A stretch of 25,906 bases of DNA from a virus: IMG/VR virus record IMGVR_UViG_3300045018_000134, positions 1 through 25,906 of that record, one strand, 5' to 3'. Shown here piece by piece: positions 3,173-25,456 of this stretch. Position 1 is the stretch's first letter. Each line of letters opens with the position of its first letter. The notes under the pieces are model-generated. The model saw only the letters and a list, made by a program, of their open reading frames with translations, searched no databases and was not told the DNA's origin. The translations under genes were made by a program, and so were the position numbers.

Positions 3173-3331
3173 TTATTGTTCTCCTTTTTTATTTATTATT
3201 TTTTTAAATATATTTTGTTTTAAAAGTTTAGTTCCTATACTATCTCTAACTTCGAAAATTTCGCCTCTTAATACAGTCTTTTTTATATCAGATATTACTC
3301 TTTCGGCGAATCCAATTAATTGTAATTTCAA
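3173..3331 (-). CDS. Small phage protein with TTG start (52 aa)
   Basis: Reading frame of 52 codons from a TTG at 3331-3329 to TAA at 3175-3173. It begins LKLQLIGFAERVISDIKK (the TTG would be read as Met) and continues TVLRGEIFEVRDSIGTKLLK. The start is chosen because a perfect AGGAGG (3346-3341) sits 9 nt upstream, and the TTG overlaps the TGA of the preceding gene, implying coupled translation. The pattern 'GEIFEV.D..G..LL' is seen in small phage proteins that accompany tail or head genes; the 64-residue product at 8644-8838 has a similar layout. Function unknown. Confidence 0.65.
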   Translation of the reverse strand: MKLQLIGFAERVISDIKKTVLRGEIFEVRDSIGTKLLKQNIFKKIINKKGEQ

Positions 3332-4257
3332 TTTTCAATACCTCCTATTAAAAATTTAAAACTTAACTTATCAATCCCTGTTATAATTCCATCAGAGCAA
3401 TCAACAATTTTATCAATATGATTGTTTAATTTGATATACTCACTAATTTGCTGAGAATATCGGAACAAATTAGCGTTTGTTTTCAAGTTTAATTCTTCAT
3501 TAAGAATAATTTCTTCTTCTTTTCTTATTGAATTTATTCCAGAATAATAAGCATCATCAATATAACTGTAATCATGGCCAAGTAATATTAATTGCTTGCA
3601 ATTAAAAAATTCTAATGCAAAAGATATTGTTGCATGCCCTACACATCCGCCGCATTTTGTAATTATTGGCAAATCTGATAATTCAGCTTCTTTAATTAAT
3701 TCTATATGGCTATTTATTCGGCATGGAGTCACAAAAAAACAAACTCTTCCGCCTAATTGATAGAATTTTCTAACAAAATCATGATTACAACCAATATGAG
3801 CCAATAAAATTGATCCATGCAAGTCAACATTATCAATATCGGCTTTAGTTTTCATTTCAGCATCTAATGCAATAACAAACTTTGGCTTAATCCCATGGTT
3901 CAATAAATAATTAAGGCTTCTGTCGGCTGCAACAATTTTATATTTATGCTGTATTTGCTGTAATTCTTCGATATTTTTTGATAAAGAAGCTCCAGAAGCA
4001 ATAGAAATTACTGTTTTCCCAGAAAATTTAAACTTATATTTATTTAAATTAATAGACGGTATAGCTTTATTTTTCTTCGCATTTTCTATTTGAACAGGTA
4101 GTATCCTTTCAACAGTGTTAATATCAGATTCAGCCTCGAATAGCTTAAAAACAGCAATATCAATCATTTTTCTTGTTGATGCTGGATTACGCTTGATGAT
4201 TTCTACAAGTTCTCTAACTTTTTCTAGGTTTCTTCGCATTCTTGCAATATCTAACAT
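3328..4257 (-). CDS. MAF/DUF115 family protein (6-hydroxymethylpterin diphosphokinase MptE-like fold)
   Basis: 309 residues from ATG 4257. The core matches the DUF115 (MAF_flag10 / MptE-like) family: SIASGASLSKNIEEL (about 85-99), VAADRSLNYLLNHGIKPKFV (about 109-128, nucleotide-binding-like), LLAHIGCN, GGCVGHATISFALEF (about 203-217) and LILLGHDYSYIDDAYYSG (about 223-240). Family members include motility-associated flagellin glycosyltransferases (Maf) and a pterin diphosphokinase; which activity applies is unknown. It lies between the head-tail joining genes and the tail tube gene, an odd place for an enzyme. A GTG start at 4269 is possible (11-nt overlap with the gene before), but ATG 4257 lies one base after that gene's stop and has GGTGGG 8 nt upstream, so it is preferred. 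Confidence 0.8.
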   Translation of the reverse strand: MLDIARMRRNLEKVRELVEIIKRNPASTRKMIDIAVFKLFEAESDINTVERILPVQIENAKKNKAIPSINLNKYKFKFSGKTVISIASGASLSKNIEELQQIQHKYKIVAADRSLNYLLNHGIKPKFVIALDAEMKTKADIDNVDLHGSILLAHIGCNHDFVRKFYQLGGRVCFFVTPCRINSHIELIKEAELSDLPIITKCGGCVGHATISFALEFFNCKQLILLGHDYSYIDDAYYSGINSIRKEEEIILNEELNLKTNANLFRYSQQISEYIKLNNHIDKIVDCSDGIITGIDKLSFKFLIGGIEN

Positions 4258-4258
4258 T

Positions 4259-4942
4259 TTATAGCCCACCAGGAATAAATCTTGGAGTTTTTACGTTGAT
4301 ATCAACTGTAGATATTACATAACCATCAATTAACTCTATATTATGTGATATTTCAGGGTCTTCAAGAATTGTATTATTCAAATTTTTATCTTTAAAAACT
4401 ACATTTATTACATTTGTCAAATCCACTAATGCTCCACAAGCTTCTATTGCGGCTTGAGATGAATTATTGAAAGCAGAAACATGATTAGAATTACATAAGA
4501 AGTAATATCCGGAATTTGTATCATATATTTTTGCTCCTATATTTTTATAATATTTACCAACTTCAAGCAAGTCCGTTCCACCAACTAAAGTTGCTGCTGT
4601 ATTATTAGAGCTTATATAGTAATCGTTAACATTATCCGTCCCTTCTTGTAATGCAGATTTTATAGTTAATTGTATTGCTTGATTATAGATCCAGTGGTTA
4701 TTATTCAAGGATTCCTTATTTCCTTGACCAATCTGAACTGTAATGCTTGGCAAAGATTCCTCATCTTCAACAATATTTGATGGACCATAAAAAAATCTTT
4801 TAAAATATGCTAAAGTTGTTCCAGATTTAAGATATGATCCAAATTCATCAATCAGATAATTATCTTGAGAGTCAAGCAGATATCCTCCGATAGAGGCTTC
4901 AATTCTTCTGCAAATTTGATTATATATATTAATTAATTTCAT
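4259..4942 (-). CDS. Probable head-tail joining / tail-terminator-position protein (227 aa)
   Basis: Unrecognised by clear motif. Begins MKLINIYNQICRRIEASIGG and is rich in Asn, Ser and Ile with alternating hydrophobic strands. It has no signal peptide or membrane helix. Its ATG overlaps the stop of the HK97 gp10-like gene (ATGA, 4939-4942). The slot between the gp10-like gene and the tail tube is where tail terminator or tail-completion proteins are encoded in HK97/lambda-like gene orders. An N-terminal helix followed by a strand 'SLPSITVQIGQG' is compatible with a terminator fold. The role is inferred from position; confidence in the gene itself is high. Confidence 0.7.
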   Translation of the reverse strand: MKLINIYNQICRRIEASIGGYLLDSQDNYLIDEFGSYLKSGTTLAYFKRFFYGPSNIVEDEESLPSITVQIGQGNKESLNNNHWIYNQAIQLTIKSALQEGTDNVNDYYISSNNTAATLVGGTDLLEVGKYYKNIGAKIYDTNSGYYFLCNSNHVSAFNNSSQAAIEACGALVDLTNVINVVFKDKNLNNTILEDPEISHNIELIDGYVISTVDINVKTPRFIPGGL

Positions 4943-5469
4943 AAGATTTCATCAACCTTCCTGCTCATTATTTCATTAAAAATATTTTGTATAACTGGTA
5001 CTATTTTATTTTGTACAAAATGTGTCCCTGTTCTTGCCGGCTGGTTAACTTTTCGAGCGATAGTAATCCCAGTTTTTTCTGATGCTTTTTTTATCCCAAG
5101 CTTCCCAACAATTTTAAAAAATTTATCTTTGCTAGATTTTTTTATTTGAAAAGTATTTACTTGTTGAGCTTTTTTATCTATAGCGAAAACTAAAATTTTG
5201 CTTCTTTTTGGAGTTATAGTTGTAGCTTTTCTTCCATTCTCAAGACTTACAAGCGGAATAGAGTTTGTTTGTATAATTCCGCTATTATTTTTAAGTACCT
5301 TTCGCCATGTCTTTCTGCCAATCCCTGTTCTTTTTGGCGTATTTTCAACGGCAACACGGAACCCTTTAATAGTAGTCTCATTGATAGCTATTTTAACGTT
5401 TTTTGGCAATTCTTTCTCTAATTTATTTAAAAATTTATCAGCATCAGTCTTAATTACAAAATCAAACAT
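4939..5469 (-). CDS. HK97 gp10-like head-tail component (176 aa)
   Basis: Basic protein starting MFDFVIKTDADKFLNKLEKE. The block VENTPKRTGIGRKTWRK matches the 'A....P..TG.LR.S' signature of HK97 gp10-like minor capsid/tail-completion proteins, and the C-terminal PARTGTHFVQNKIVPVIQNI fits the closing helix of that family. An ATG at 5496 would add nine residues but has only a weak SD. ATG 5469 has AAAGAGAG 8-13 nt upstream and overlaps the preceding stop by 8 nt, so it is preferred. It sits directly after the gp6-like connector, as in classic head-tail modules. Confidence 0.75.
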   Translation of the reverse strand: MFDFVIKTDADKFLNKLEKELPKNVKIAINETTIKGFRVAVENTPKRTGIGRKTWRKVLKNNSGIIQTNSIPLVSLENGRKATTITPKRSKILVFAIDKKAQQVNTFQIKKSSKDKFFKIVGKLGIKKASEKTGITIARKVNQPARTGTHFVQNKIVPVIQNIFNEIMSRKVDEIL

Positions 5470-6031
5470 ATATGCGTCTCTCTTTATATAATTCATTAAG
5501 GATCCATTCCGGTATTTGAGTTATATTAACGCTCAATTCTCCGCCATTACCATCAGATACTATTTTTGTAGCTAATCCTGAAAAAATCGCTGCAATTTTT
5601 ACACAAAGGTTTTTTATGTTTTCTGGAGTTGATGAATACCCAAAAACTCCAGTAATTACAATAGCATTATGTCCTGAAGACCAAGCATTTTTCATTATTT
5701 TTCCATAATTTTTAAAAAGATAATAATCTTCATCTTTTGTTAATATTATTCCATCTTCTATAATTGAAGTAATCGAAACTATTGGCGGGGTTAATATTGA
5801 ATCTTGAGCATAATTAATAATAAATCCATTATTAGATTCTCCATATATGTCCACGATTTCATTTGATAATGTCGCTTGGTAATAAAAATTTCCCGTATTA
5901 TCTTCAATATATTTCGTTGCTCTTCGAATACAATCTTCAAGAAAAGTATATTTTTCGTCTGTTATTTTTTGCTCTCTTCCAAGTTCTTGTTGCAATTCAG
6001 AAACTGTTGCATAACAATTAGTTAATGTCAT
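5462..6031 (-). CDS. gp6/gp15-like head-tail connector protein (189 aa)
   Basis: Begins MTLTNCYATVSELQQELGRE. The N-terminal helical part (ITDEKYTFLEDCIRRATKYI followed by EDNTGNFYY) is the typical pattern of the phage gp6-like connector family, in which an 'i...A...IE..tgr.f' helix is followed by a beta insertion. The central section (PPIVSITSIIEDGIILTKDE then DYYLF) also fits. It would bind the portal and extend the neck to receive the tail. Its ribosome binding site is an unusual nine-guanine run two bases before the ATG (see separate entry). Confidence 0.8.
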   Translation of the reverse strand: MTLTNCYATVSELQQELGREQKITDEKYTFLEDCIRRATKYIEDNTGNFYYQATLSNEIVDIYGESNNGFIINYAQDSILTPPIVSITSIIEDGIILTKDEDYYLFKNYGKIMKNAWSSGHNAIVITGVFGYSSTPENIKNLCVKIAAIFSGLATKIVSDGNGGELSVNITQIPEWILNELYKERRIYV

Positions 6032-6033
6032 TT

Positions 6034-6042
6034 CCCCCCCCC
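6034..6042 (-). promoter_or_regulatory. Homopolymer G9 tract acting as ribosome binding site
   Basis: Nine consecutive C on the plus strand (G on the transcribed strand) end two bases before the ATG of the connector gene at 6031. No other SD is present in the 15-nt gap after the preceding stop (6049-6047), so the G run itself must supply ribosome pairing. Such a tract is striking in this A/T-rich sequence and is prone to replication slippage. Confidence 0.55.
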
Positions 6043-6046
6043 GATA

Positions 6047-7057
6047 TTATTCATATACACAAGTTATATTTGTTGCTCCCGATAATGATATAAATAAACC
6101 ATTATCAAAAGGGATGTTAGTTAATACTGTCGCTATATTCGCTTTCGTTGTGTCAATTGTAGCAATAACCGTTCCATTTGTTGAAAGCCCGTCATATAGA
6201 GTTATAATTTTTGAGTCTAAACTATTAATATCTACTTGATGTATTTCACCCGGTCCAACTTTTAATAAATAATTTCCGTTTGTCATATTAACTACTTTTG
6301 ATTGAGAATTTTTTGTCCCCAATCTTGAAATAGAACCTACTAATATCTTCATACTTCCTGTAGCGTTTGTCCCGTTTTGATTTAAAACTTGAAAAGTTGG
6401 TTTTAAATGTAAAGTTCCAGAATTACTATTAGTATTCGCAATTAAAGTGTATACCAGATCCCCATTCATTGTGTACTGAGTAATTTTATTTGTAAAATAA
6501 ATTTCATAAGTATTGAAGGAGACTCCCATATATTGAGAGCAATTAATACTATCACAAGAAGTATCTACGCCTAATCTTCTATTAACGCAACTTAATCTAT
6601 TGCCTGAAATTTCAAAAAAGAATCCATTATAATTATCAAAAGCCCCGATTCTTTTTGTTGATGTATTTGTATCTTGGATTCTTACAATTGATCTGAACAT
6701 GTTAGAATTTGCACCTTGGTATCTTGCTACTCTTCCAGAAGTTATCATTACATTTGCGGTAGTTGAGCTGTTAACTGATATTACACACTCTGAAGCGGTA
6801 ACAACTATTGAACTATTATTACTTATCGGAGAAATCCAAAAATTACCATCTAATGCTGCCCCGTTGAATACCCCTCCAGCTAGTCGATAGGTTTCTGCTG
6901 TTCTTAGTTGGTTTACTAATGTTCCTTCTATTTCATTCCCATATTCATCTGTTAGCAAAATTTCTTGAGGAGATGTGCTAATTCTTGAATTAGCACTAGA
7001 AATCTGTAAAAATAATACAAAAACTAAAACAAAATAAAAAAATATTTTAACCATCAT
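6047..7057 (-). CDS. Secreted-type phage virion-region protein with C-terminal beta domain (336 aa)
   Basis: ATG at 7057 (or 7054) with GGAG 5-8 nt upstream, overlapping the preceding TGA. A start seven codons further up has no SD. The N-terminus (MMVKIFFYFVLVFVLFLQIS, then SANS) is a clear Sec signal peptide with a possible SSA cleavage site. The mature part is Asn/Ser/Thr-rich, beta-type, with several cysteines at about 150-180. The C-terminal about 75 residues (GPGEIHQVDINSLDSKIITL then YDG, ending FISLSGATNITCVYE) resemble the beta-sandwich domain seen in phage head decoration and fibre proteins, with a 'TLYD...GTVIATID' strand. Likely a surface-exposed virion or host-surface protein; export is unexpected and unproven. 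Confidence 0.75.
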   Translation of the reverse strand: MMVKIFFYFVLVFVLFLQISSANSRISTSPQEILLTDEYGNEIEGTLVNQLRTAETYRLAGGVFNGAALDGNFWISPISNNSSIVVTASECVISVNSSTTANVMITSGRVARYQGANSNMFRSIVRIQDTNTSTKRIGAFDNYNGFFFEISGNRLSCVNRRLGVDTSCDSINCSQYMGVSFNTYEIYFTNKITQYTMNGDLVYTLIANTNSNSGTLHLKPTFQVLNQNGTNATGSMKILVGSISRLGTKNSQSKVVNMTNGNYLLKVGPGEIHQVDINSLDSKIITLYDGLSTNGTVIATIDTTKANIATVLTNIPFDNGLFISLSGATNITCVYE

Positions 7058-7674
7058 AATTTCTCCACAGCAATGCACAGGTCGCTAAATACAACATTAA
7101 TTCCTGAACCTGTTCCGTTCGGACTTGTCCATCGCAAATTAAACCAATCATTAAGATTAAACAACCCTACATGCTCTAAAATCAAAAAACTATATGCAGC
7201 TGAATTAGAATGCTGAACATATCTTGTTGGAGATATTATTGATGCATCATTAACGCTTATCCCAGCTAATACCGTAGCGATATATGATGCTGTAGTAGTA
7301 CTTATCTTGCACCAAACTCTAACTTTGTAGATTCCAGTCTTGCCCATCACAATATTGCCGGTAGGACCCAGAGAAACATTAAGCGTGGCTTCTTGTGTAA
7401 CGGCATTAAGCGTTATTAGGCACACATTACCTGTAATAAGCACCGAGTTAAGAGTTACTGCACGCTGATGGAAATATCCATAAGCTCTAGAATTATCGTA
7501 AAAATAATTTGCGGTAATGCCTCCAGCAGCGGTTATCCCACCGTTATAATTATTAGTTACTGTTTTTGAATTAGCTAATCCGATAACTCTATTGGCATCA
7601 ATGCTTAATTGATTAGCAAAAACAAAAGATTGAGCTGATATTATCACTAATATAAACAAATAAAATATTTTCAT
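7054..7674 (-). CDS. Secreted-type phage protein, possible jelly-roll (C1q-like) domain (206 aa)
   Basis: Begins MKIFYLFILVIISAQSFVFA, a canonical signal peptide with a VFA cleavage motif before NQLSIDANR. A Gly/Asn-rich linker (about 30-60) is followed by a beta-rich C-terminal half: GKTGIYKVRVWCKISTTTAS, LAGISVNDASII, then FNLNDWFNLRWTSPNGTGSG. The pattern 'G.Y.v......I.VN......GD.v.lr' is that of C1q/TNF-like or phage receptor-binding jelly rolls. Second-to-last of four consecutive signal-peptide genes in transcription order is the preceding gene; this one is third. Fold assignment is by eye only. Confidence 0.75.
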   Translation of the reverse strand: MKIFYLFILVIISAQSFVFANQLSIDANRVIGLANSKTVTNNYNGGITAAGGITANYFYDNSRAYGYFHQRAVTLNSVLITGNVCLITLNAVTQEATLNVSLGPTGNIVMGKTGIYKVRVWCKISTTTASYIATVLAGISVNDASIISPTRYVQHSNSAAYSFLILEHVGLFNLNDWFNLRWTSPNGTGSGINVVFSDLCIAVEKL

Positions 7675-7688
7675 GAATAACTCCCATT

Positions 7689-8126
7689 TTAATATTTAGT
7701 CGCTAAAATATTGCCCGTAATATTTGCTGTTGCAGAATAATTATAAAAAGTAATTACGCAATTATTTGACTTAAAATTAATCAAATCTGTTCCAGAAGTT
7801 AAGGTATCGTTACTTAATAATGTGGTTCTATCAGACAAATACCATGCAACATTAGCAGTTGTTATGTTTCCCGTACTTTGCCAAGGAAAATAAAAATTTA
7901 AAGCTCCAAAATCGCCGATATTATCTATCTTATAATTAATGCTTGAGTTTGCTGTTATTTGCTGCGATTTCAATTCTGCCTGAATAGCAGTTGGGATATT
8001 ATTATTCAATGTAGTTCGATTCGAATAACTACCAGCTTGAAATTTCGGAAGATAATCCGCAAAAAGCCCATTAGTTGCAACTATGAGCATGATTATAATT
8101 GTAATTAATAAGCTCTTTTTATACAT
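7689..8126 (-). CDS. Secreted-type phage hypothetical protein (145 aa)
   Basis: ATG 8126 is chosen because AAAGGAAAT lies just upstream; an earlier TTG at 8162 falls inside a stem-loop and has no SD. The N-terminus MYKKSLLITIIIMLIVATNG then LFADYLP is a signal peptide with an LFA cleavage motif. The mature 110 residues are polar and beta-like (FKSNNCVITFYNYSATANIT), Asn/Thr-rich, with one cysteine. No family recognised. It lies between two other signal-peptide genes and shares their composition, so a joint role is likely. Confidence 0.7.
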   Translation of the reverse strand: MYKKSLLITIIIMLIVATNGLFADYLPKFQAGSYSNRTTLNNNIPTAIQAELKSQQITANSSINYKIDNIGDFGALNFYFPWQSTGNITTANVAWYLSDRTTLLSNDTLTSGTDLINFKSNNCVITFYNYSATANITGNILATKY

Positions 8127-8150
8127 TTTTTTATTTCCTTTTATTAAAAT

Positions 8151-8175
8151 TGGGTAGAGCAATAAGCCCTACCCA
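8151..8175 (-). terminator. Stem-loop between two signal-peptide genes, possible weak terminator
   Basis: TGGGTAG (8151-8157) pairs with CTACCCA (8169-8175); GC pairs continue inside around an AATAA loop. The single A/C mismatch in plus-strand RNA becomes a G-U wobble in minus-strand RNA, giving a continuous 10-bp stem on the transcribed strand only. It is followed by ATTTTAATAA, a weak U-tract, then the next gene's SD. It could attenuate or protect the mRNA downstream of the 8183-8647 gene. Confidence 0.5.
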
Positions 8176-8182
8176 TAAAAAC

Positions 8183-8647
8183 TTAACTTGCTTCTCCACC
8201 GCAAAGGCTCAAAAGATTCCATTTTCCTAAAGTAGAATCATAAATAAATCCAGCAATTGCAGATGTGGTATTTAATGTTACAACAGTATAATTTCCGATG
8301 CTGATATTTCCTGCAGTTGAAATAACGATATCATGTGTACTATTAACTGGTCTGATATATACGATATCACCATCATACACTTTTGAATATTTAGTATCCC
8401 CAGCAAAAATATTCATTGATACAAGCGTATCTACAGCAGCAGCGGCATAAGTATCAACCTTACAAAAACTTTCTTGTGGTACAAAATATCCAGCATCTGC
8501 AAGAGTATACGTTGATGATTTTTGCCCAGCTCCAGCAACCATTTTTGTTCTTTTTCCTACATCAGAACGAGAAATCACTCTGGAATCTACCGCAAAAGCT
8601 GAAGCACAAAAACATAACAAAACCAAACTAACTAATATTCGCTTCAT
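8183..8647 (-). CDS. Secreted-type phage decoration-like protein (154 aa)
   Basis: Begins MKRILVSLVLLCFCASAFAV, a textbook signal peptide with cleavage after AFA; a cysteine in LCFCAS is not a proper lipobox position. The mature protein (about 135 residues) is beta-type, with repeated strand patterns GDIVYIRPVNSTHDIVI, ISIGNYTVVTLN and AIAGFIYDSTLGKWNLLSL. The last pattern ('...F.YD...W.l') recurs in phage decoration and fibre domains. Strong SD GGAGG, with ATGA overlap to the preceding small gene. It is the first of four signal-peptide genes after the capsid gene, the slot often used for decoration proteins. Confidence 0.75.
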   Translation of the reverse strand: MKRILVSLVLLCFCASAFAVDSRVISRSDVGKRTKMVAGAGQKSSTYTLADAGYFVPQESFCKVDTYAAAAVDTLVSMNIFAGDTKYSKVYDGDIVYIRPVNSTHDIVISTAGNISIGNYTVVTLNTTSAIAGFIYDSTLGKWNLLSLCGGEAS

Positions 8648-8838
8648 TTCCCAACCTCCTTTTTATCGCCTTTCGGCATTCTCTTGTTATCATATTTTTC
8701 TACCCATTTTTCTTTTTCAAAAGCCTTGATATGTTTTTCATTAATAAAATCAGATTCAGGAACAACATTCCCAGCCACTAATTTTATAATTTTATTATTT
8801 TTCTCAAAATTAAATGGATGCAATACTTTAAATTCCAT
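8644..8838 (-). CDS. Small hypothetical phage protein following the capsid gene (64 aa)
   Basis: Begins MEFKVLHPFNFEKNNKIIKL. Highly charged; central pattern 'LVAGNVVPESDFIN..HIKAFEKEKWVE' then a Lys-rich tail. No signal peptide. AAGGGGGA precedes the ATG. Layout resembles the 52-residue product at 3173-3331 (a strand, a 'G..V' turn, then a helix), but no functional family can be named. Confidence 0.7.
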   Translation of the reverse strand: MEFKVLHPFNFEKNNKIIKLVAGNVVPESDFINEKHIKAFEKEKWVEKYDNKRMPKGDKKEVGK

Positions 8839-8857: not shown

Positions 8858-8895
8858 TAACGCCTCTCGTTAAACAAAATCATGGAGAGGCGTTA
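8858..8895 (-). promoter_or_regulatory. Stem-loop after the capsid stop codon
   Basis: Perfect 11-bp inverted repeat TAACGCCTCTC (8858-8868) / GAGAGGCGTTA (8885-8895) with a 16-nt loop, starting 8 nt past the capsid gene stop. No U-tract follows on either strand, so it is not a standard intrinsic terminator. An mRNA-stabilising or processing element at the 3' end of the capsid transcript is the more likely role. Confidence 0.6.
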
Positions 8896-8903
8896 ATTAA
8901 ATA

Positions 8904-10280
8904 TTAGTTTGTTAATTCTTGCACAGCAGCCACTACACCACTTGTTGATGTTCCAGAAAGGACTTTTGAACCAATCCTTCCTACAGCTCTATATGCTGTC
9001 TGGTCATAATCAAATTTTAAATCTCGGCTCATATCGATAGCCAAGTCATCAATCCCAACCGAAACCATAGATAAATCAGCAGCTATAATAATATCTGATG
9101 TCCCTCCAGTCCTTCTGTTAACGTTCCCAGAGCTTGCTAATACTTGCATTGTTGATGGAATTGCACTATTCACAATAAAATCATTACCATATGGCGCAAT
9201 CACTCCAGAATTTACAAAATCAGGGAAAACAGAATTTCCAGCTGCATTCTTAATAGCTCCGAACGCATTTCTTACCTTTCTATTTGCCATAAAAGTTATA
9301 TTGTTTGTTTTCTCGGAAATAGCAGCAATTAATGCAAGCAAATCCGCTTCTGTTATATCAACAAGTGCTTTTGATGTAACTCCAGCAGTTAACGTATCGA
9401 AAGCAATACCATTGAACGGGTCAGAATTAGTTGTTACAGAAAAACAAGGTACTGCTAAATCAACATGTCTTGCATTTGCAGAAGCAAACTGATTCATTAA
9501 TGCGGTAACAACTTCAGGGCTTCTCATTTTAATGAGTTCATTAGAGATATAAGCCATCCCTCCATATCGGCTCATAGCAATAGTCGGGTTGCTGATTGTC
9601 GGTGTTTTATCACCGATTTGCGTAGATTCATCTGTAATTGTAGCAAAAGATACATCAACCATAATCGGATACAATTTGCTATTAAATACAACATTATTCC
9701 TGTTGCATTTAGATAGCATTTGGCTTTGTTCATAAGTCAATTGCATAATTTCTGATGCTACTTCTGTAGGGATAAGATATGATCCGGTTGTTGCATCAGT
9801 ATATAATGCTGTTTTCATACTTAATCCTAATTGTTTCGCATCAGCGATATTCTGAGCCTTAACATCTTCGCAAACTTTATTTAAACTTGCTATATCCCCA
9901 ACTAGCTTATAATACAAAGCATCAGCTACGGATTTTCTAGCATCTGACATCCCCTTATATCCTTCACTTTTACCAGTAATCATAGAAAAATATTTAACTT
10001 CTTCTTTTTCTTGTCCTCTTTCGAGCAATCCCTTAACTCCAGTAGATTCAAGAACAGCGTCTACACTAGCCTTCACTTTTGCTTCAAGTTTTTTCGCTTC
10101 TTCGTCTTCTTCAATAGATTTTGACGCTAATTTGCTTGCCTCGAAAGCTTTTTTTGCTTCAAGATAAGCAGCAGATAATTCTTCTGGAGTGGCTTTAACT
10201 TCTGTATCAGAAGCGATTTCCAGCATAGCCTCTTCGTAATTCATGCCTTTTTTTAATAATTCTAAAAACTTCTTTTTCAT
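8904..10280 (-). CDS. Major capsid protein, HK97 fold, with N-terminal delta domain (458 aa)
   Basis: Residues 1 to about 120 are charged and helical (EEAKKLEAKVKASVDAVLES), matching the scaffolding-like delta domain that the prohead protease removes. The mature part contains TDATTGSYLIPTEVASEIMQ, the classical start of HK97 coat domains, then YGGMAYISNELIKM, and MANRKVRNAFGAIKN and ISVG-type strands of the A domain. Length fits HK97-like proteins that carry their own scaffold. Strong SD AAAAGGAGAAG. It lies directly after the protease gene and no separate scaffold gene is present, consistent with the fused delta domain. Confidence 0.9.
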   Translation of the reverse strand: MKKKFLELLKKGMNYEEAMLEIASDTEVKATPEELSAAYLEAKKAFEASKLASKSIEEDEEAKKLEAKVKASVDAVLESTGVKGLLERGQEKEEVKYFSMITGKSEGYKGMSDARKSVADALYYKLVGDIASLNKVCEDVKAQNIADAKQLGLSMKTALYTDATTGSYLIPTEVASEIMQLTYEQSQMLSKCNRNNVVFNSKLYPIMVDVSFATITDESTQIGDKTPTISNPTIAMSRYGGMAYISNELIKMRSPEVVTALMNQFASANARHVDLAVPCFSVTTNSDPFNGIAFDTLTAGVTSKALVDITEADLLALIAAISEKTNNITFMANRKVRNAFGAIKNAAGNSVFPDFVNSGVIAPYGNDFIVNSAIPSTMQVLASSGNVNRRTGGTSDIIIAADLSMVSVGIDDLAIDMSRDLKFDYDQTAYRAVGRIGSKVLSGTSTSGVVAAVQELTN

Positions 10281-10908: not shown

Positions 10909-12900
10909 CTAATTTGCTGGAACAATTGCCCCAGTATGGTTAGGATGGAACTCAAGATCCTCTAATTCTTCGAGTGTTATCCCTGTTCGATTGCAATCCG
11001 TAGTCTCATCTTCGCACCCGATAACATCAAACATCTGTACTCCAAGCTCTTTGTAACTTAATAACATAGCTTGGTCCATAGCATTTGATGCTTCTGTTCG
11101 AGCTATTCTTGTCGCCATCCAGCCATTTTTACCGGTAAGATTTGAAAAATAATCCTTAATTGTTCCTTCAAGCTCTGAAACTCCAGTGTTAGCATCTCTC
11201 CACGCTGAAATAATGCCCTCAAGCTCTGAAACTCTGCTGTCGATTGTTCTTGATGCATATTTTTCTGCCAGAGTATTAATAATTTTAGGTACTTGTGGAT
11301 TTTTTGTTGATGAATCGACATCAGTTCCCATCGTTTGATTTGCAGAATTAATCCCGATTGTTATTGCAGAAGTAAAAAAATTCTTAGCATCTTTTTTCGC
11401 TGCATTTTTTACTTCAGCAAAATTAAAGCCTACATCCGATTTTTTTGGCAAATTATCAAGAACAACTGATTCTAATTCCTTATAAAATTTATTTACTGAT
11501 TTCGTAATTTGTGGTTCTATTTTAAGCTTAGTCTTTTTCGAATTTCTAAGAATTAACTGCTGATTATACTTCCCAGCCTTTTTTTTTTCTTCTTGGGGAT
11601 GTTTTCCAGAACAACCACAAATATTTTTCCCAGCTTCTTGATTTTGCGGTTGAGCAGTTTCAGAAATAGAATAATTGATATCAGATGCAGGAATATAATT
11701 CATCGGAAGGATATATTCATTTGGTGCGTACTCATCGAATGTTAGTCCTACTAGAGGCTTTAATTCGTTTGGCTTCATCCCCCCAAGCGGAACTAATGTT
11801 TGTGCAATCTTGATAGCTTTTTCGATATCAATGATAGTATCTTTTTTAAATTTTGGATAAGCATTATTTCCATCGATAATTTGCACAAATGGAGTTAACG
11901 CTTCTTCGATCAAAGTATGATTAACAGCTAATACTTCCTGCCATGCACGGGATTCTTCTTCTTTTGCTGTGTATACACTTTGCAATCCTGCTTTTGAACG
12001 TGGCACTCTGAACATCATCAAGCAATTTTCTTTGTTTTGTAATTGCCTATCAAGCATCTGGAGTTCATTATATTTAATATCCATACTATCAACTTTTGCT
12101 CCAGGAGGAACAAAAACAATCGGTTCTTTTGATTTCCCATATTCGAACCTGAAATTATCTTTAAATTCTTTCATTTTGCCCGCAATAGGGGCTTGGTTAA
12201 CATCTTCCCAAAATACAGCTAGCTTTGCATTCGGACCTTTTCCGAAAAATATTTTCTCAAACAAATTCTGAATTTGTTCAGCTTCTAGAAGTGATGAATT
12301 GCGTTGAACTATACCCATCCCACGTAATAAGTTATTTGGATTCCCTGTTTTTATATGAATTATATTTTTTGGATTTAAATTAACAATTCCAGCAGAATGA
12401 GAATAACGGTAATTAACAACCGTTCTTCCGACTCTGCTATCAGTCGCACGCACAACTTTTCCGAACTCATCTATTATTTCGACAAGAGCAGGGTTAAGAA
12501 TCCTTAATTTGTTTGGTTTCCCTGTGGTTTCGGCTAGAGCATTATCCCTATCCATAAGAATAAAAGCATTACCATCAAGGTCCAGATGCATACTTAGAGT
12601 TTCTTTGAATTGCCTCCCATTTACGAATTCTTCAGGATTATCAAGTATAAATTTAGATTTTGATGCATTTATAGCTGATTCTTTTTTGTCAACAATAATT
12701 AAAGGTACTTTTGCCACGTCTTCGGCTCGGATCCCAACACAGAATCCAATAAACCCAAGCAAAGAATAAGATTCAATAGCATCAGACGACGAATTAATAC
12801 CATAATTTATTTGGCTACTACCAGAATTTACAAATCCAAAGTTTGCAGCAGTTAATGATTTTTTGCCGGGGAAAAATATTTTTTTAATTTTTGATATCAT
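10909..12900 (-). CDS. Portal protein fused to a MuF-like head domain (663 aa)
   Basis: N-terminal 430 residues form an HK97-type portal: IGFCVGIRAEDVAKVPLIIV, LDGNAFILMDRDN, NIIHIKTGNPNN then LLRGMGIVQ, and a crown/wing region ending DEYAPNEYILPMNYIP. After a basic, cysteine-containing linker (ICGCSGKHPQEEKKK, about 438-452), a helical region follows. The end is MuF-like: MATRIARTEASNAMDQAMLL (595-614), then CEDETTDCNRTGITLEELED and FHPNHTGAIVPAN. MuF proteins are usually separate; here they are one chain. No SD is visible before ATG 12900; a TATAAT lies just upstream. Confidence 0.9.
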   Translation of the reverse strand: MISKIKKIFFPGKKSLTAANFGFVNSGSSQINYGINSSSDAIESYSLLGFIGFCVGIRAEDVAKVPLIIVDKKESAINASKSKFILDNPEEFVNGRQFKETLSMHLDLDGNAFILMDRDNALAETTGKPNKLRILNPALVEIIDEFGKVVRATDSRVGRTVVNYRYSHSAGIVNLNPKNIIHIKTGNPNNLLRGMGIVQRNSSLLEAEQIQNLFEKIFFGKGPNAKLAVFWEDVNQAPIAGKMKEFKDNFRFEYGKSKEPIVFVPPGAKVDSMDIKYNELQMLDRQLQNKENCLMMFRVPRSKAGLQSVYTAKEEESRAWQEVLAVNHTLIEEALTPFVQIIDGNNAYPKFKKDTIIDIEKAIKIAQTLVPLGGMKPNELKPLVGLTFDEYAPNEYILPMNYIPASDINYSISETAQPQNQEAGKNICGCSGKHPQEEKKKAGKYNQQLILRNSKKTKLKIEPQITKSVNKFYKELESVVLDNLPKKSDVGFNFAEVKNAAKKDAKNFFTSAITIGINSANQTMGTDVDSSTKNPQVPKIINTLAEKYASRTIDSRVSELEGIISAWRDANTGVSELEGTIKDYFSNLTGKNGWMATRIARTEASNAMDQAMLLSYKELGVQMFDVIGCEDETTDCNRTGITLEELEDLEFHPNHTGAIVPAN

Positions 12901-12909
12901 TCTATAAAA

Positions 12910-12938
12910 ATTATATCATTATCAAACTTAATCGTCAT
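12910..12938 (-). promoter_or_regulatory. Possible promoter immediately before the portal gene
   Basis: On the minus strand ATGACG (12938-12933) is followed after 17 nt by TATAAT (12915-12910). A transcript would start about 12903, three bases before the portal ATG, giving a nearly leaderless mRNA. This would fit the missing SD. The -35 match is only four of six and the sequence is A/T-rich, so chance is possible. Confidence 0.25.
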
Positions 12939-14352
12939 TAATTTCATTTATTATATTTAATCCAAGTTTTGAAATTATTTCACGTCGCAGAGGATAATAG
13001 CTCCAAACAGCAAAAGTCAGTGAGTCTGAAACATCATCATTTTTCGCTTCGATTTTATTGTTATCATACGAATTATTTGCTAGAGATAACTTAAAACATA
13101 CGTTTTTTAAGTCTTTTTTTAATTCTTCTTGATTCTCGAGATAAAACAATAAATTATTCTGGAAAAGCATATTAGCAAACAAATATCGTGCAGTTCGTTT
13201 TGTTTCTGCAATACCTTCATCGTTTGATGTCGATAGCCAACTAACAGCATCGATATCATATTGCCGCAAAGCCTTAATATTTTCTGGTCGTTCATGCGAA
13301 CAGAACCATTTATCAACATTATATTTTTCTTGTAATTCTTTTATGATTTTTACGATTGTTCGATCCGATTCATTAATAGATAGAAACAACAATCCAGATT
13401 CTCCGATTGATTCCAATACGTACATTTTATGTTCTTTCGAAACGCCTACAACGGTTATTCCTGTTCGGTGTGTATGCCCATGATCATAACCCCCAAAAAC
13501 ATACTCAAACTGTAAGTTGTTAGGTAATTGTTGCAAACAGTTATCTTCTGTTACTCCGTCAAAAACTTGACCTTCGTATATTTCCCTAGAAGCAAGAAAG
13601 TTTCTTGCAAATTCTGCTTTTGACATTACTTTTTTTAAATCATCAACTCTTTTTATGAATCCTGAAATTTTTGTTTGTTCTAAGTATGTCCAATGGAAGA
13701 AAACCCAGTTTCTGGAAGGATCGCATTTTTCAGGATATAACGGCAATCCAGTTATTCCATCAACGCATAGTTGCTGCATTTCCGTAAAGTCCCATCCTTC
13801 GCCTTTTGGGGTAGTATTCGCAATTACCCATCCATCAGTATCAGTTATCGTAGGTAATACGTTTTCGCTCCAGACTGTAGGCTTCATACGTGCAACCTCA
13901 GTCATCACTATTCCATGTATCCCTTCACCAACGAGGTCATCAGGATTATCAGCAGATTTAAATTCTATCATAACGTCCCATTCCCCATCAATATATGGAC
14001 GTATTATCCACATCTGCTTTGTTGACTTATTATATACAAAATCACGATTCAACTTAAATCCAGCAAAAATAAGGTATCTAAACAATTCTTTTCTAATTAT
14101 GTTCGAATGCTTGTATTTCGGTCCTATTGCCCAATAATGCAGCCTTGGGAGTTCAGCCTCCAAGGAATGAACTTTACTCCCTTTTCCCGCTGCCAAATCT
14201 TCGCAAATATTCTTAAAAGCTTTGCGTGCGGTTATCCAATCTTTACCGCCTCTTCTAGTCGCTAGCAAGAATTTATATTTATGTTCATCAGAATAAATTA
14301 ATTCTTGGATCTTATGCCCACCAACTTGTTTTGATAGGTCAATTTTTGCCAT
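12928..14352 (-). CDS. terL: Terminase large subunit (474 aa)
   Basis: DNA-packaging motor: ATPase plus headful or site-specific nuclease. Walker A is ATRRGGKD (31-38), of the 'RRGGKD' type. The Walker B strand is GIHGIVMTEVARM (145-157), with Thr in place of the usual Asp before the catalytic Glu152. Coupling motif ANTTPKG is at 178-184. The RNase H-like nuclease has its first acid in GGYDHG (D290) and the distal acids in KNDDVSDSLTF (D439/D440/D443). ATG 14352 has AAAAGGAT upstream and overlaps the small-subunit stop by 14 nt. Confidence 0.95.
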   Translation of the reverse strand: MAKIDLSKQVGGHKIQELIYSDEHKYKFLLATRRGGKDWITARKAFKNICEDLAAGKGSKVHSLEAELPRLHYWAIGPKYKHSNIIRKELFRYLIFAGFKLNRDFVYNKSTKQMWIIRPYIDGEWDVMIEFKSADNPDDLVGEGIHGIVMTEVARMKPTVWSENVLPTITDTDGWVIANTTPKGEGWDFTEMQQLCVDGITGLPLYPEKCDPSRNWVFFHWTYLEQTKISGFIKRVDDLKKVMSKAEFARNFLASREIYEGQVFDGVTEDNCLQQLPNNLQFEYVFGGYDHGHTHRTGITVVGVSKEHKMYVLESIGESGLLFLSINESDRTIVKIIKELQEKYNVDKWFCSHERPENIKALRQYDIDAVSWLSTSNDEGIAETKRTARYLFANMLFQNNLLFYLENQEELKKDLKNVCFKLSLANNSYDNNKIEAKNDDVSDSLTFAVWSYYPLRREIISKLGLNIINEINDD

Positions 14353-15535: not shown

Positions 15536-16222
15536 TTATACCTTTATTGTTGATTTAAGTTTTCTTATGGATTTTTGTAATATTTTTAAGACTTCTTTTT
15601 TAGATATATTAGTTAAAATTGCAATATCTTTAGTTGTTTTCTCAAAAAAACTCATCCAGAAGATAATTTTTTCTTTTTCAGATAAAATATTATTTATTTC
15701 ATTTTTTAAAATTTCAAAATATATATTTGAAATTGAGTTTTCAGCAAAATTATTATTAAAAATTAATTGAGTATCAGAAATTTTATCAATATTAATTATT
15801 TGTATTTCGCAATCAGATATAAATTTAAGATTATGGTAATTGTATTTTTCAGGATTTTTTTTAATTGAAATTAATGCATCATGGATGTTTACCGGAAGTC
15901 TTATCAATCTAGAATTATTTGCTAGAAATCGCCTAATATATTGATGGATCCAAAAAGTTGCATACGTTGAAAAAGAAACATCCCTTTTATAATCAAATTT
16001 TTCTATTGATTTCATTAACCCTAAAATACCTTCTTGAATTAGATCTTCAATCTCATAAAAAGCAATATATTTTGTAGCTATTTTAATAACCATCGGGATA
16101 TATTTAGAAATAAATTCATTGTAAGCTAATTCGTCTTTGTTGTTTTTAATTTTATTTATTAATTCTATCTGTTTTTCTTTTGATGGAAACTTGACATCTA
16201 TTAAATAATTACTATAGTTCAT
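15536..16222 (-). CDS. Phage-encoded sigma-70 family RNA polymerase sigma factor (228 aa)
   Basis: Directs host RNA polymerase to chosen promoters. Sigma region 2 is clear: AYNEFISKYIPMVIKIATKY, then DLIQEGILGLMKSIEKFDY (core binding), SFSTYATFWIHQYIRRF (-10 recognition and melting) and SRLIRLPVNIHD. Region 4: LSEKEKIIFWMSFFEKTTKD then IAILTNISKKEVLKIL (helix-turn-helix) and RKLKSTI. Region 3 is poorly conserved. ATG 16222 has GGGAG 8 nt upstream; an ATG at 16246 overlaps the previous gene and lacks an SD. It lies between early and late genes, so control of late transcription is the natural guess. Confidence 0.9.
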   Translation of the reverse strand: MNYSNYLIDVKFPSKEKQIELINKIKNNKDELAYNEFISKYIPMVIKIATKYIAFYEIEDLIQEGILGLMKSIEKFDYKRDVSFSTYATFWIHQYIRRFLANNSRLIRLPVNIHDALISIKKNPEKYNYHNLKFISDCEIQIINIDKISDTQLIFNNNFAENSISNIYFEILKNEINNILSEKEKIIFWMSFFEKTTKDIAILTNISKKEVLKILQKSIRKLKSTIKV

Positions 16223-16239
16223 TTCATATTCTCCCATTT

Positions 16240-16671
16240 TTAACATAAATAATCTGCAAAACTTTTCCCTTTTGATAAATCTATATGGCTATTAGTAGCA
16301 AATTTTTTTGATATTGCCTTTCTTCTTTCTTCCCAAGTCAATTGTGCTTGTTTTTTATTGCTGTTTTTCTTGCTTATTGTCGGTGTTATCCGGGGAGTAT
16401 CTTTTAACGGAAGTTCAAAATATTTAAGCATTAATTTATCGATATAATTTGTAGTTTTATGTTTAGAATTATGAAAACATAATCTTCCGCTAGCATCAGC
16501 TTTTATTTGAAGATACCCACCAGGAATAAAACGTTTGATTTTTTGACATTTTTGATTCGTGAAACAGCTATAACTTCCGATACGATAAAGTTTTCTTTCA
16601 CGATTAAGATATAAACAATCGTGTTCATCTATTTTAACATATCCTTTTTCGAATAATTCTTTTTCATCCAT
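16240..16671 (-). CDS. Hypothetical protein (143 aa)
   Basis: Basic protein with four to five cysteines; begins MDEKELFEKGYVKIDEHDCL. The middle part (RFIPGGYLQIKADASGRLCF, then YIDKLMLKYFELP) recalls the N-terminal beta region of HNH/NUMOD-type phage proteins ('GY..v.l...G......ihrLm...F'), but no HNH catalytic motif is present. The C-terminal part is Lys-rich. The ATG follows the stop of the MazG-like gene directly, with AAGGAGGAG upstream. Possibly a DNA-binding remnant; unproven. Confidence 0.65.
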   Translation of the reverse strand: MDEKELFEKGYVKIDEHDCLYLNRERKLYRIGSYSCFTNQKCQKIKRFIPGGYLQIKADASGRLCFHNSKHKTTNYIDKLMLKYFELPLKDTPRITPTISKKNSNKKQAQLTWEERRKAISKKFATNSHIDLSKGKSFADYLC

Positions 16672-24694: not shown

Positions 24695-24904
24695 TTATCT
24701 GAAAATAACCAGCTGAAAAAATAGCCTGGTGAAAGCTATAAGTAACGCTATCTTACCGCATCGGATAGCGGCATCAGCTCCAACTTCTCCGATTGCCCAA
24801 GCCAAGCCAAAGGCTATCAGAGAAATTATTACAAAAAACAATATTAAAATTCCTATTAGCTCAAAATTATTGAGCATAAATAATCTTACTTTTGGTTTCC
24901 TCAT
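24695..24904 (-). CDS. Small membrane protein, two helices (69 aa)
   Basis: Begins MRKPKVRLFMLNNFELIGIL. Two hydrophobic segments: about residues 15-37 (IGILILFFVIISLIAFGLAW) and 50-66 (KIALLIAFTRLFFQLVI), separated by a short loop GEVGADAAIRCG. The positive N-terminus suggests it faces the cytoplasm. The ATG follows the preceding stop with no gap, with AAAGGAGAAAA upstream. A holin-like role cannot be excluded, but it is far from any lysis gene. Confidence 0.65.
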   Translation of the reverse strand: MRKPKVRLFMLNNFELIGILILFFVIISLIAFGLAWAIGEVGADAAIRCGKIALLIAFTRLFFQLVIFR

Positions 24905-25456
24905 TTAATTTTCTCCTTTCAATAATGCTAGGCCATAATTTATTATTTTTATTTCACAAGCATCAGCAGCGGCATAAGTAATGGTGTAAGCGGCAGAAGC
25001 GGCATCAGCGGCATCAGCGGTATAAGCGGCAGAAGCGGCGGCAGAAGTAATGGTGTAAGCGGCATAAGCGGCATAAGCTGCGGTATAAGCGGCATAAGCG
25101 GCATCAGCGGCGGTATAAGCGGCATAAGCGGCTGCATAAGCGGCATCCCTATTAGCTTTTGTGTTTTTTAGCAGCACTTTTTTTGCTGCTTCTATTGCAG
25201 CTCTTGGCCTAGTGTCTTCAGGATATTTTTTCTCAAAAATATTTAAAACTAATTCAGCAGAAAATATTGCATATTTAATTCTTTGTTTTTTATCAAGAAT
25301 CCTTGATAAGATCCAATTAGCCCAATTGAACCGATATTCTGCAAGTATTTGTATTTGCTTTATATTGGGTTTACCTTCACAATTTTTTACCCAAAAATCA
25401 AACCCATCTTGGCACGCATTCCATCTTTTTAAGTCTTTTTTAGTTACTTCTTTCAT
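24905..25456 (-). CDS. Alanine-repeat protein resembling Imm5-like putative immunity proteins (183 aa)
   Basis: The middle segment AELVLNIFEKKYPEDTRPRA then AIEAAKKVLL matches the 'vLplFe..yP.D.RPR.AIEAAr' signature of the Imm5-like putative immunity family, which continues in related proteins into Ala-rich repeats. Here residues about 105-168 are a run of AAY/AYT/AAD triplets, coded by a 9-bp DNA repeat. The N-terminal part (LKRWNACQDGFDFWVKNCEG) is helical with two cysteines. SD AAAAAAGGAG precedes the ATG. The biological role in phages is not established. Confidence 0.65.
   Translation of the reverse strand: MKEVTKKDLKRWNACQDGFDFWVKNCEGKPNIKQIQILAEYRFNWANWILSRILDKKQRIKYAIFSAELVLNIFEKKYPEDTRPRAAIEAAKKVLLKNTKANRDAAYAAAYAAYTAADAAYAAYTAAYAAYAAYTITSAAASAAYTADAADAASAAYTITYAAADACEIKIINYGLALLKGEN
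24958..25146. repeat. 9-bp degenerate tandem repeat coding for alanine-rich triplets
   Basis: About 20 copies of GGCATAAGC and variants (GGTATAAGC, GGCAGAAGC, GGCATCAGC) over nearly 190 bp, all in one reading phase of the minus-strand gene. Its local G+C is well above the surrounding sequence. Insertions or deletions of 9 bp keep the frame. Confidence 0.9.

Follow-up and report, generated by a model that had tools for sequence, protein, structure and literature searches.

The stretch of DNA analysed here (the window) is the whole of IMG/VR record IMGVR_UViG_3300045018_000134, a linear tailed-phage sequence of 25,906 bases whose assigned genes in the window all lie on the minus strand. Read 5' to 3', these encode the small and large terminase subunits, a portal fused to a MuF-like domain, a protease, an HK97-type major capsid protein (MCP), a 64-aa product, four proteins that we call P4, P3, P2 and P1, a head-tail adaptor, a neck protein, a 227-aa product, an MptE-like protein, the tail tube and the tape measure (Table 1). 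The capsid and adaptor genes, neither of which encodes a signal peptide, form the upstream and downstream borders of a block in which P4 to P1 carry signal peptides, with the signal-less 64-aa gene separating the capsid gene from P4. The four genes and their strand stood as initially annotated; the starts of two of them did not, that of P1 being corrected to an ATG at 7057 and that of P3 to an internal ATG at 8126, with AAAAGGAAAT upstream. P2 and P4 start at 7674 and 8647.

Table 1. Coordinates of features in the window
Feature	Positions	Strand	Details
Imm5-like protein	24905-25456	-	phrog_38757, E 4e-34; Ala/Tyr/Thr-rich repeat stretch
69-aa gene	24695-24904	-	strongly hydrophobic stretch
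Sigma-70 family factor	15536-16246	-	phrog_351, E 6e-39
Major capsid protein, HK97 fold family	8904-10280	-	PF05065, E 1e-21; phrog_10, E 7e-29
11-bp hairpin 3' of capsid gene	8858-8895	-	no T run; -18.7 kcal/mol, z -3.9
64-aa gene	8644-8838	-	no signal peptide; ATGA coupling to P4
P4	8183-8647	-	signal peptide residues 1-19 (8591-8647), score 5.86; mature part 135 aa
10-bp hairpin between P4 and P3	8151-8175	-	followed by ATTTTAA; -18 kcal/mol, z -3.8
P3	7689-8126	-	signal peptide residues 1-23 (8058-8126), score 5.66; mature part 122 aa
P2	7054-7674	-	signal peptide residues 1-20 (7615-7674), score 5.51; mature part 186 aa
P1	6047-7057	-	336 aa; signal peptide residues 1-22 (6992-7057), score 5.20
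Nine-G homopolymer	6033-6042		ribosome-site region of the adaptor gene
Head-tail adaptor	5462-6031	-	phrog_442, E 3e-8
MptE-like/DUF115 gene	3328-4269	-	PF01973, E 6e-28; PseD likeness, E 1e-8

Each of P1-P4 is preceded by a Shine-Dalgarno-like sequence (AGGAGG for P4), and ATGA overlaps join the 64-aa gene to P4 and the stop codon of P2 to the start codon of P1. Promoter-like sites around the four genes showed no excess over shuffled expectation. Of the two hairpins, that between P4 and P3 is a possible partial terminator and that behind the capsid gene a possible mRNA-processing or attenuation stem. An assembly chimera is unlikely, because a second assembly (L002), which differs by 2 mismatches in 8,891 bases from the terminase to its end within P1, has the same P4-P1 block; this near-identical contig was the only direct relative recovered when IMG/VR was searched with MCP, the large terminase subunit, P1 and P4.

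Several other features of the window deserve mention. The nine-G tract could slip and so give variable expression of the adaptor. The MptE-like gene, of glycosyltransferase type and with a likeness to the flagellin-modification protein PseD, sits in the tail module between the neck and tail-tube genes, and its product could modify virion proteins. Late transcription may be driven by the sigma-70 family factor, whose gene lies a short way upstream of the virion cassette. The 69-aa gene, which lies beside that of the Imm5-like protein, encodes a possible membrane protein or holin.

Signal peptides of P1-P4

Signal peptides were scored with a simple rule on the n-, h- and c-regions, calibrated on known signals and phage genes; 14 known E. 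coli and M13 signal peptides score 3.8-5.9. P1-P4 fall within this range and are the only genes of the window with textbook Sec signal peptides, the next best of its 34 genes scoring 2.6. All four have the Sec/signal peptidase I pattern of a positive n-region, a short h-region and a cut at residues 19-23, with a c-region whose residue is small at -1 and permitted at -3. The predicted cuts lie between MMVKIFFYFVLVFVLFLQISSA and NSR in P1, MKIFYLFILVIISAQSFVFA and NQL in P2, MYKKSLLITIIIMLIVATNGLFA and DYL in P3, and MKRILVSLVLLCFCASAFA and VDS in P4. A lipobox ([LVI][ASTVI][GAS]C) was absent from the end of all four h-regions, no transmembrane anchor was found, and none of the proteins matched an outer-membrane beta-barrel family in Pfam, NCBIfam or PHROG.

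Scores of this size are rare in phage genes. In 79 other phage loci, all 479 genes of 100 aa or longer scored below 5, as did all but 5 of 9,000 shuffled N-termini; a wider survey of about 147 other contigs gave 21 genes out of 1,180 (1.8%) at 4.5 or above, and no run of three. In a published survey, the whole genomes of five lytic rumen phages were reported to encode 2, 1, 0, 0 and 0 signal peptides (PMC5723332). The observation that opened this work, four consecutive Sec-type signal peptides between capsid and connector, is thus far beyond chance.

Family membership and recurrence of the signals

Mature P1 matched the "virion structural protein" family phrog_1645 of the head and packaging category (E 2e-12, residues 41-170), and independent phmmer matches ranged from E 7e-8 to 2e-6. 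It carries the motif RxGxFDxxNGFFFE, which makes up most of the residues that are invariant in a 32-sequence alignment, part of the motif being itself the search pattern. Full-length alignment of P1 to phrog_1645 fails: the profile covers only some 130 residues, the C-terminal half is unlike that of the family, and P1 continues beyond the phrog_1645-type domain in a C-terminal extension. By its core domain, mature P1 is a predicted member of the phrog_1645 virion structural protein family.

P2, P3 and P4 had no family match in Pfam, PHROGs or NCBIfam. P2 and P4 had no PDB match by sequence and no significant match among GenBank phages, and tblastn with P4 gave a non-significant likeness (E 0.8-3) to segments of phage tail-fibre and internal virion proteins. 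P1, P2 and P3 are rich in Asn, Thr and Ser, which make up 33% of the whole P3 protein. Charged residues amount to 10-16% in P1-P4, 14% in the tail tube and 18-41% in the remaining genes. The AlphaFold model of P1 was poor; that of P2 (AF2) was of low confidence, with a beta-rich C-terminal half, and these models did not confirm the earlier likening of two of the products to decoration or jelly-roll domains. The earlier suggestion that the four proteins were taken up together, or arose by duplication, as a single system found no support: they show no pairwise similarity, which rejects duplication of one unit, and their codon usage and GC content are those of the neighbouring virion genes, which rejects a recent foreign cassette.

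Known relatives in phrog_1645 come from cyanomyophages, Puniceispirillum phage HMO-2011, Sulfitobacter phage phiGT1 (gp4) and halovirus HGTV-1 (gp10). As for P1, the gene lies in the head module, flanked by portal and scaffold in phiGT1 and by portal and protease in HGTV-1, and the RxGxFDxxNGFFFE core is common to P1 and its relatives; P1 differs in its C-terminus and in the signal peptide that stands in place of the family's N-terminal part. Signal peptides were absent from all annotated phrog_1645 members examined, from the GenBank homologues of P1 (L180-L183) and from four homologues in bacterial genomes, to which phylum searches added none.

Because the P1-family alignment was too divergent for a scan, we searched IMG/VR with patterns of the P1 core motif and examined about 150 matches among those listed, some on overlapping or related contigs. 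Among the matches listed, three further unrelated lineages bear a signal peptide on the phrog_1645 protein: L106/L167, L107/L169 and L090/L168, the last with a near copy (L156) of weaker score, 4.05. In L168 the phrog_1645 gene adjoins that of a 284-aa phrog_8198 protein, also with a signal, between portal and protease. Elsewhere among these contigs, a conserved secreted nuclease-like gene (MKKLLLLLLAVPALALA...) lies near the phrog_1645 gene in L131, L136, L141, L143, L145, L149 and L152, as well as in L117.

In a maximum-likelihood tree of 35 phrog_1645 members the four signal-bearing proteins were scattered, with four changes, at least two of them forced by well-supported branches; P1 is very divergent (branch 3.1) and its place in the tree unsure. 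Close relatives of the signal-bearing proteins are without these signals. Judged from these sequences, signal peptides of the P1 family appear to have been gained independently and more than once, all four signal-bearing phages having been sampled through this one family among the matches listed. Since such gains recur on P1-family members of other phages, convergent rerouting of existing parts fits the data better than transfer of one cassette.

A podophage with a run of six signal-peptide genes

L167 (IMGVR_UViG_3300009788_000448) is a 15.8-kb podophage fragment unrelated to the window phage. Between its capsid (phrog_212) and tail tubular A (phrog_394) genes, a 148-aa gene without a signal is followed by six signal-peptide genes in a row, whose products are a 759-aa fibre-like protein, a 146-aa protein, a 234-aa LamG protein (PF13385, E 6e-24; also matching virion structural PHROGs), a fibre-like protein of about 549 aa, the phrog_1645 protein (E 6e-98) and a 107-aa protein; "fibre-like" is our judgement from the sequence and does not come from a database match. 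The two phages thus share a signal-peptide run between capsid and tail connector that includes a phrog_1645 protein, yet they differ in the number of genes (six versus four) and in the phrog_212 capsid and tail tubular proteins of L167, which also has no detectable homologues of P2-P4. The signal peptide of the 549-aa protein (4153-5799, minus strand) ends in a lipobox-like LAAC, and this protein may be a lipoprotein. Upstream of the protease and capsid genes, at 12632-13830 on the minus strand, signal peptides also occur on two further products of 227 and 173 aa, neither with a confident family.

L167 further differs from the window phage in bearing a signal on a core tail protein. Beyond the six genes, its phrog_376 tail protein (E 7e-119), a homologue of epsilon15 gp12, begins with the signal extension MRKIFIKIFTILFILCPVSYGLLSQA, and the phrog_376 match sets in right after this signal, at residue 28. 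The homologues in epsilon15, Baldr, ctVRi840, L177 and L178 start at a short normal N-terminus with no extension; L177 and L178 resemble L167 in their podophage layout but carry no signals. The L167 gene is equipped with a ribosome site; from the signal peptide to the start of the conserved core it offers no other ATG, GTG or TTG. It runs off the end of the contig, so the rest of that genome may contain another copy that lacks the signal. Proteins of phrog_376 were also scanned for signal peptides, with no hit, but by a pattern that could not match L167 either.

Across these phages, the assigned capsid, portal, protease, adaptor, tube, tail tubular A and terminase proteins are without signals, and the signal-bearing proteins are outer parts or proteins of no known type. 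Export signals thus seem to have been added repeatedly to outer parts of virion type.

A proposed staged assembly, its rivals and known systems

Tailed-phage virion proteins normally assemble in the cytoplasm. The reading we prefer, at a probability of roughly 40%, is that P1-P4 are outer virion parts that are exported by Sec and join DNA-filled heads at lysis. Head-decoration or fibre-type proteins would be routed through the host Sec system and not kept in the cytoplasm; signal peptidase I would remove their N-terminal 19-23 residues, and the mature proteins would fold outside the cytoplasm. Meanwhile the signal-less capsid, portal, protease, adaptor, tail tube and tape measure would build DNA-filled heads and tails in the cytoplasm. 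Failure of the inner membrane at lysis would bring exported parts and particles together for the first time, and the parts would then bind. The support for this staged assembly consists of the signal peptides, the gene order, the family membership of P1 and the recurrence of signals, including that on a core tail protein; from these we infer export itself, the presence of mature P1-P4 in the virion, a diderm host and attachment at lysis. Against it, export of a tail protein requires late completion of assembly, which is mechanistically awkward, and P1 is very divergent, with about 130 residues aligned, while P2-P4 are without a family.

Surface export and loading onto virions after lysis had both been proposed when the block was first described. 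Both stand, and the evidence favours the second, because P1 falls in a virion-protein family and a core tail protein of L167 has a signal peptide: exporting a tail protein would be pointless unless it ended up in the virion all the same, and this consideration leads to staged assembly. The first, the main rival and somewhat less probable, holds that P1-P4 are host-surface or periplasmic proteins made from virion parts and exported late, which would block receptors or adsorbing phages (superinfection exclusion) or mediate cell adhesion, and would not be virion components. Signal peptides directly predict such export, low charge and abundant Asn, Thr and Ser suit extracellular proteins, and the tail cassette of lambda encodes Lom, an outer-membrane protein with a signal peptide (PMC12309495). 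However, no lipobox, transmembrane anchor or beta-barrel family was found in P1-P4, P1 belongs with virion proteins, and surface exclusion does not account for the signal on the tail protein of L167.

We consider it improbable that P1-P4 are secreted morons or auxiliary proteins with no relation to the virion, which lie in the decoration locus by chance and target the host or its environment. Although P2-P4 lack a family, and single secreted genes do occur in other phages, such as the nuclease-like gene near the P1 homologues of freshwater phages, the codon usage of the four genes is that of virion genes, they are translationally coupled to the cassette with no excess of promoters, P1 is placed in a virion family, and the unrelated L167 has its run at the same location. 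Least probable of all is that the hydrophobic N-termini are membrane-interaction or assembly segments of unexported virion proteins, as the cytoplasmic norm would have it, given the full n-h-c pattern with a cut at 19-23, scores equal to those of real E. coli signals, and the aggregation that an unexported hydrophobic N-terminus would be expected to cause in soluble beta proteins.

Generalizing the staged-assembly model, we tentatively suggest, as a possibility we hold with some doubt, a two-compartment mode of building in which some phages of diderm bacteria attach Sec-exported outermost or last-added parts to heads made in the cytoplasm, and only at lysis, a mode that would have evolved several times by the addition of signals to existing virion genes. 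If outer virion parts do travel by Sec, they would be exceptions to the taught rule of wholly cytoplasmic tailed-phage assembly, and would meet the oxidising periplasm and the extracytoplasmic modification systems of the host; screening virion families for signal peptides would then be a cheap route to more cases. If P1-P4 instead stay on the host, phages would have a new source of surface proteins in the domains of their virions.

The initial annotation knew of no described counterpart, and this agrees with the literature: in open-licence PMC papers we found no tailed phage described whose virion proteins carry signal peptides in a run, the nearest case being lambda Lom (PMC12309495). Lom shares with P1-P4 a Sec signal peptide on a gene inside a virion operon; it is one protein, a beta-barrel of the outer membrane that lysogens express, whereas P1-P4 are four soluble-looking proteins between capsid and adaptor, one of them in a virion family. 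Superinfection-exclusion lipoproteins of the Cor and Llp type have a lipobox with an invariant Cys at +1, which P1-P4 lack. From their genes, P1-P4 may be likened to g3p and g8p, the coat proteins of filamentous phage M13, which are virion proteins with cleavable signal peptides; M13, however, assembles at the inner membrane without lysis, whereas the window phage has a dsDNA genome and a tail and encodes capsid, portal, protease and terminase.
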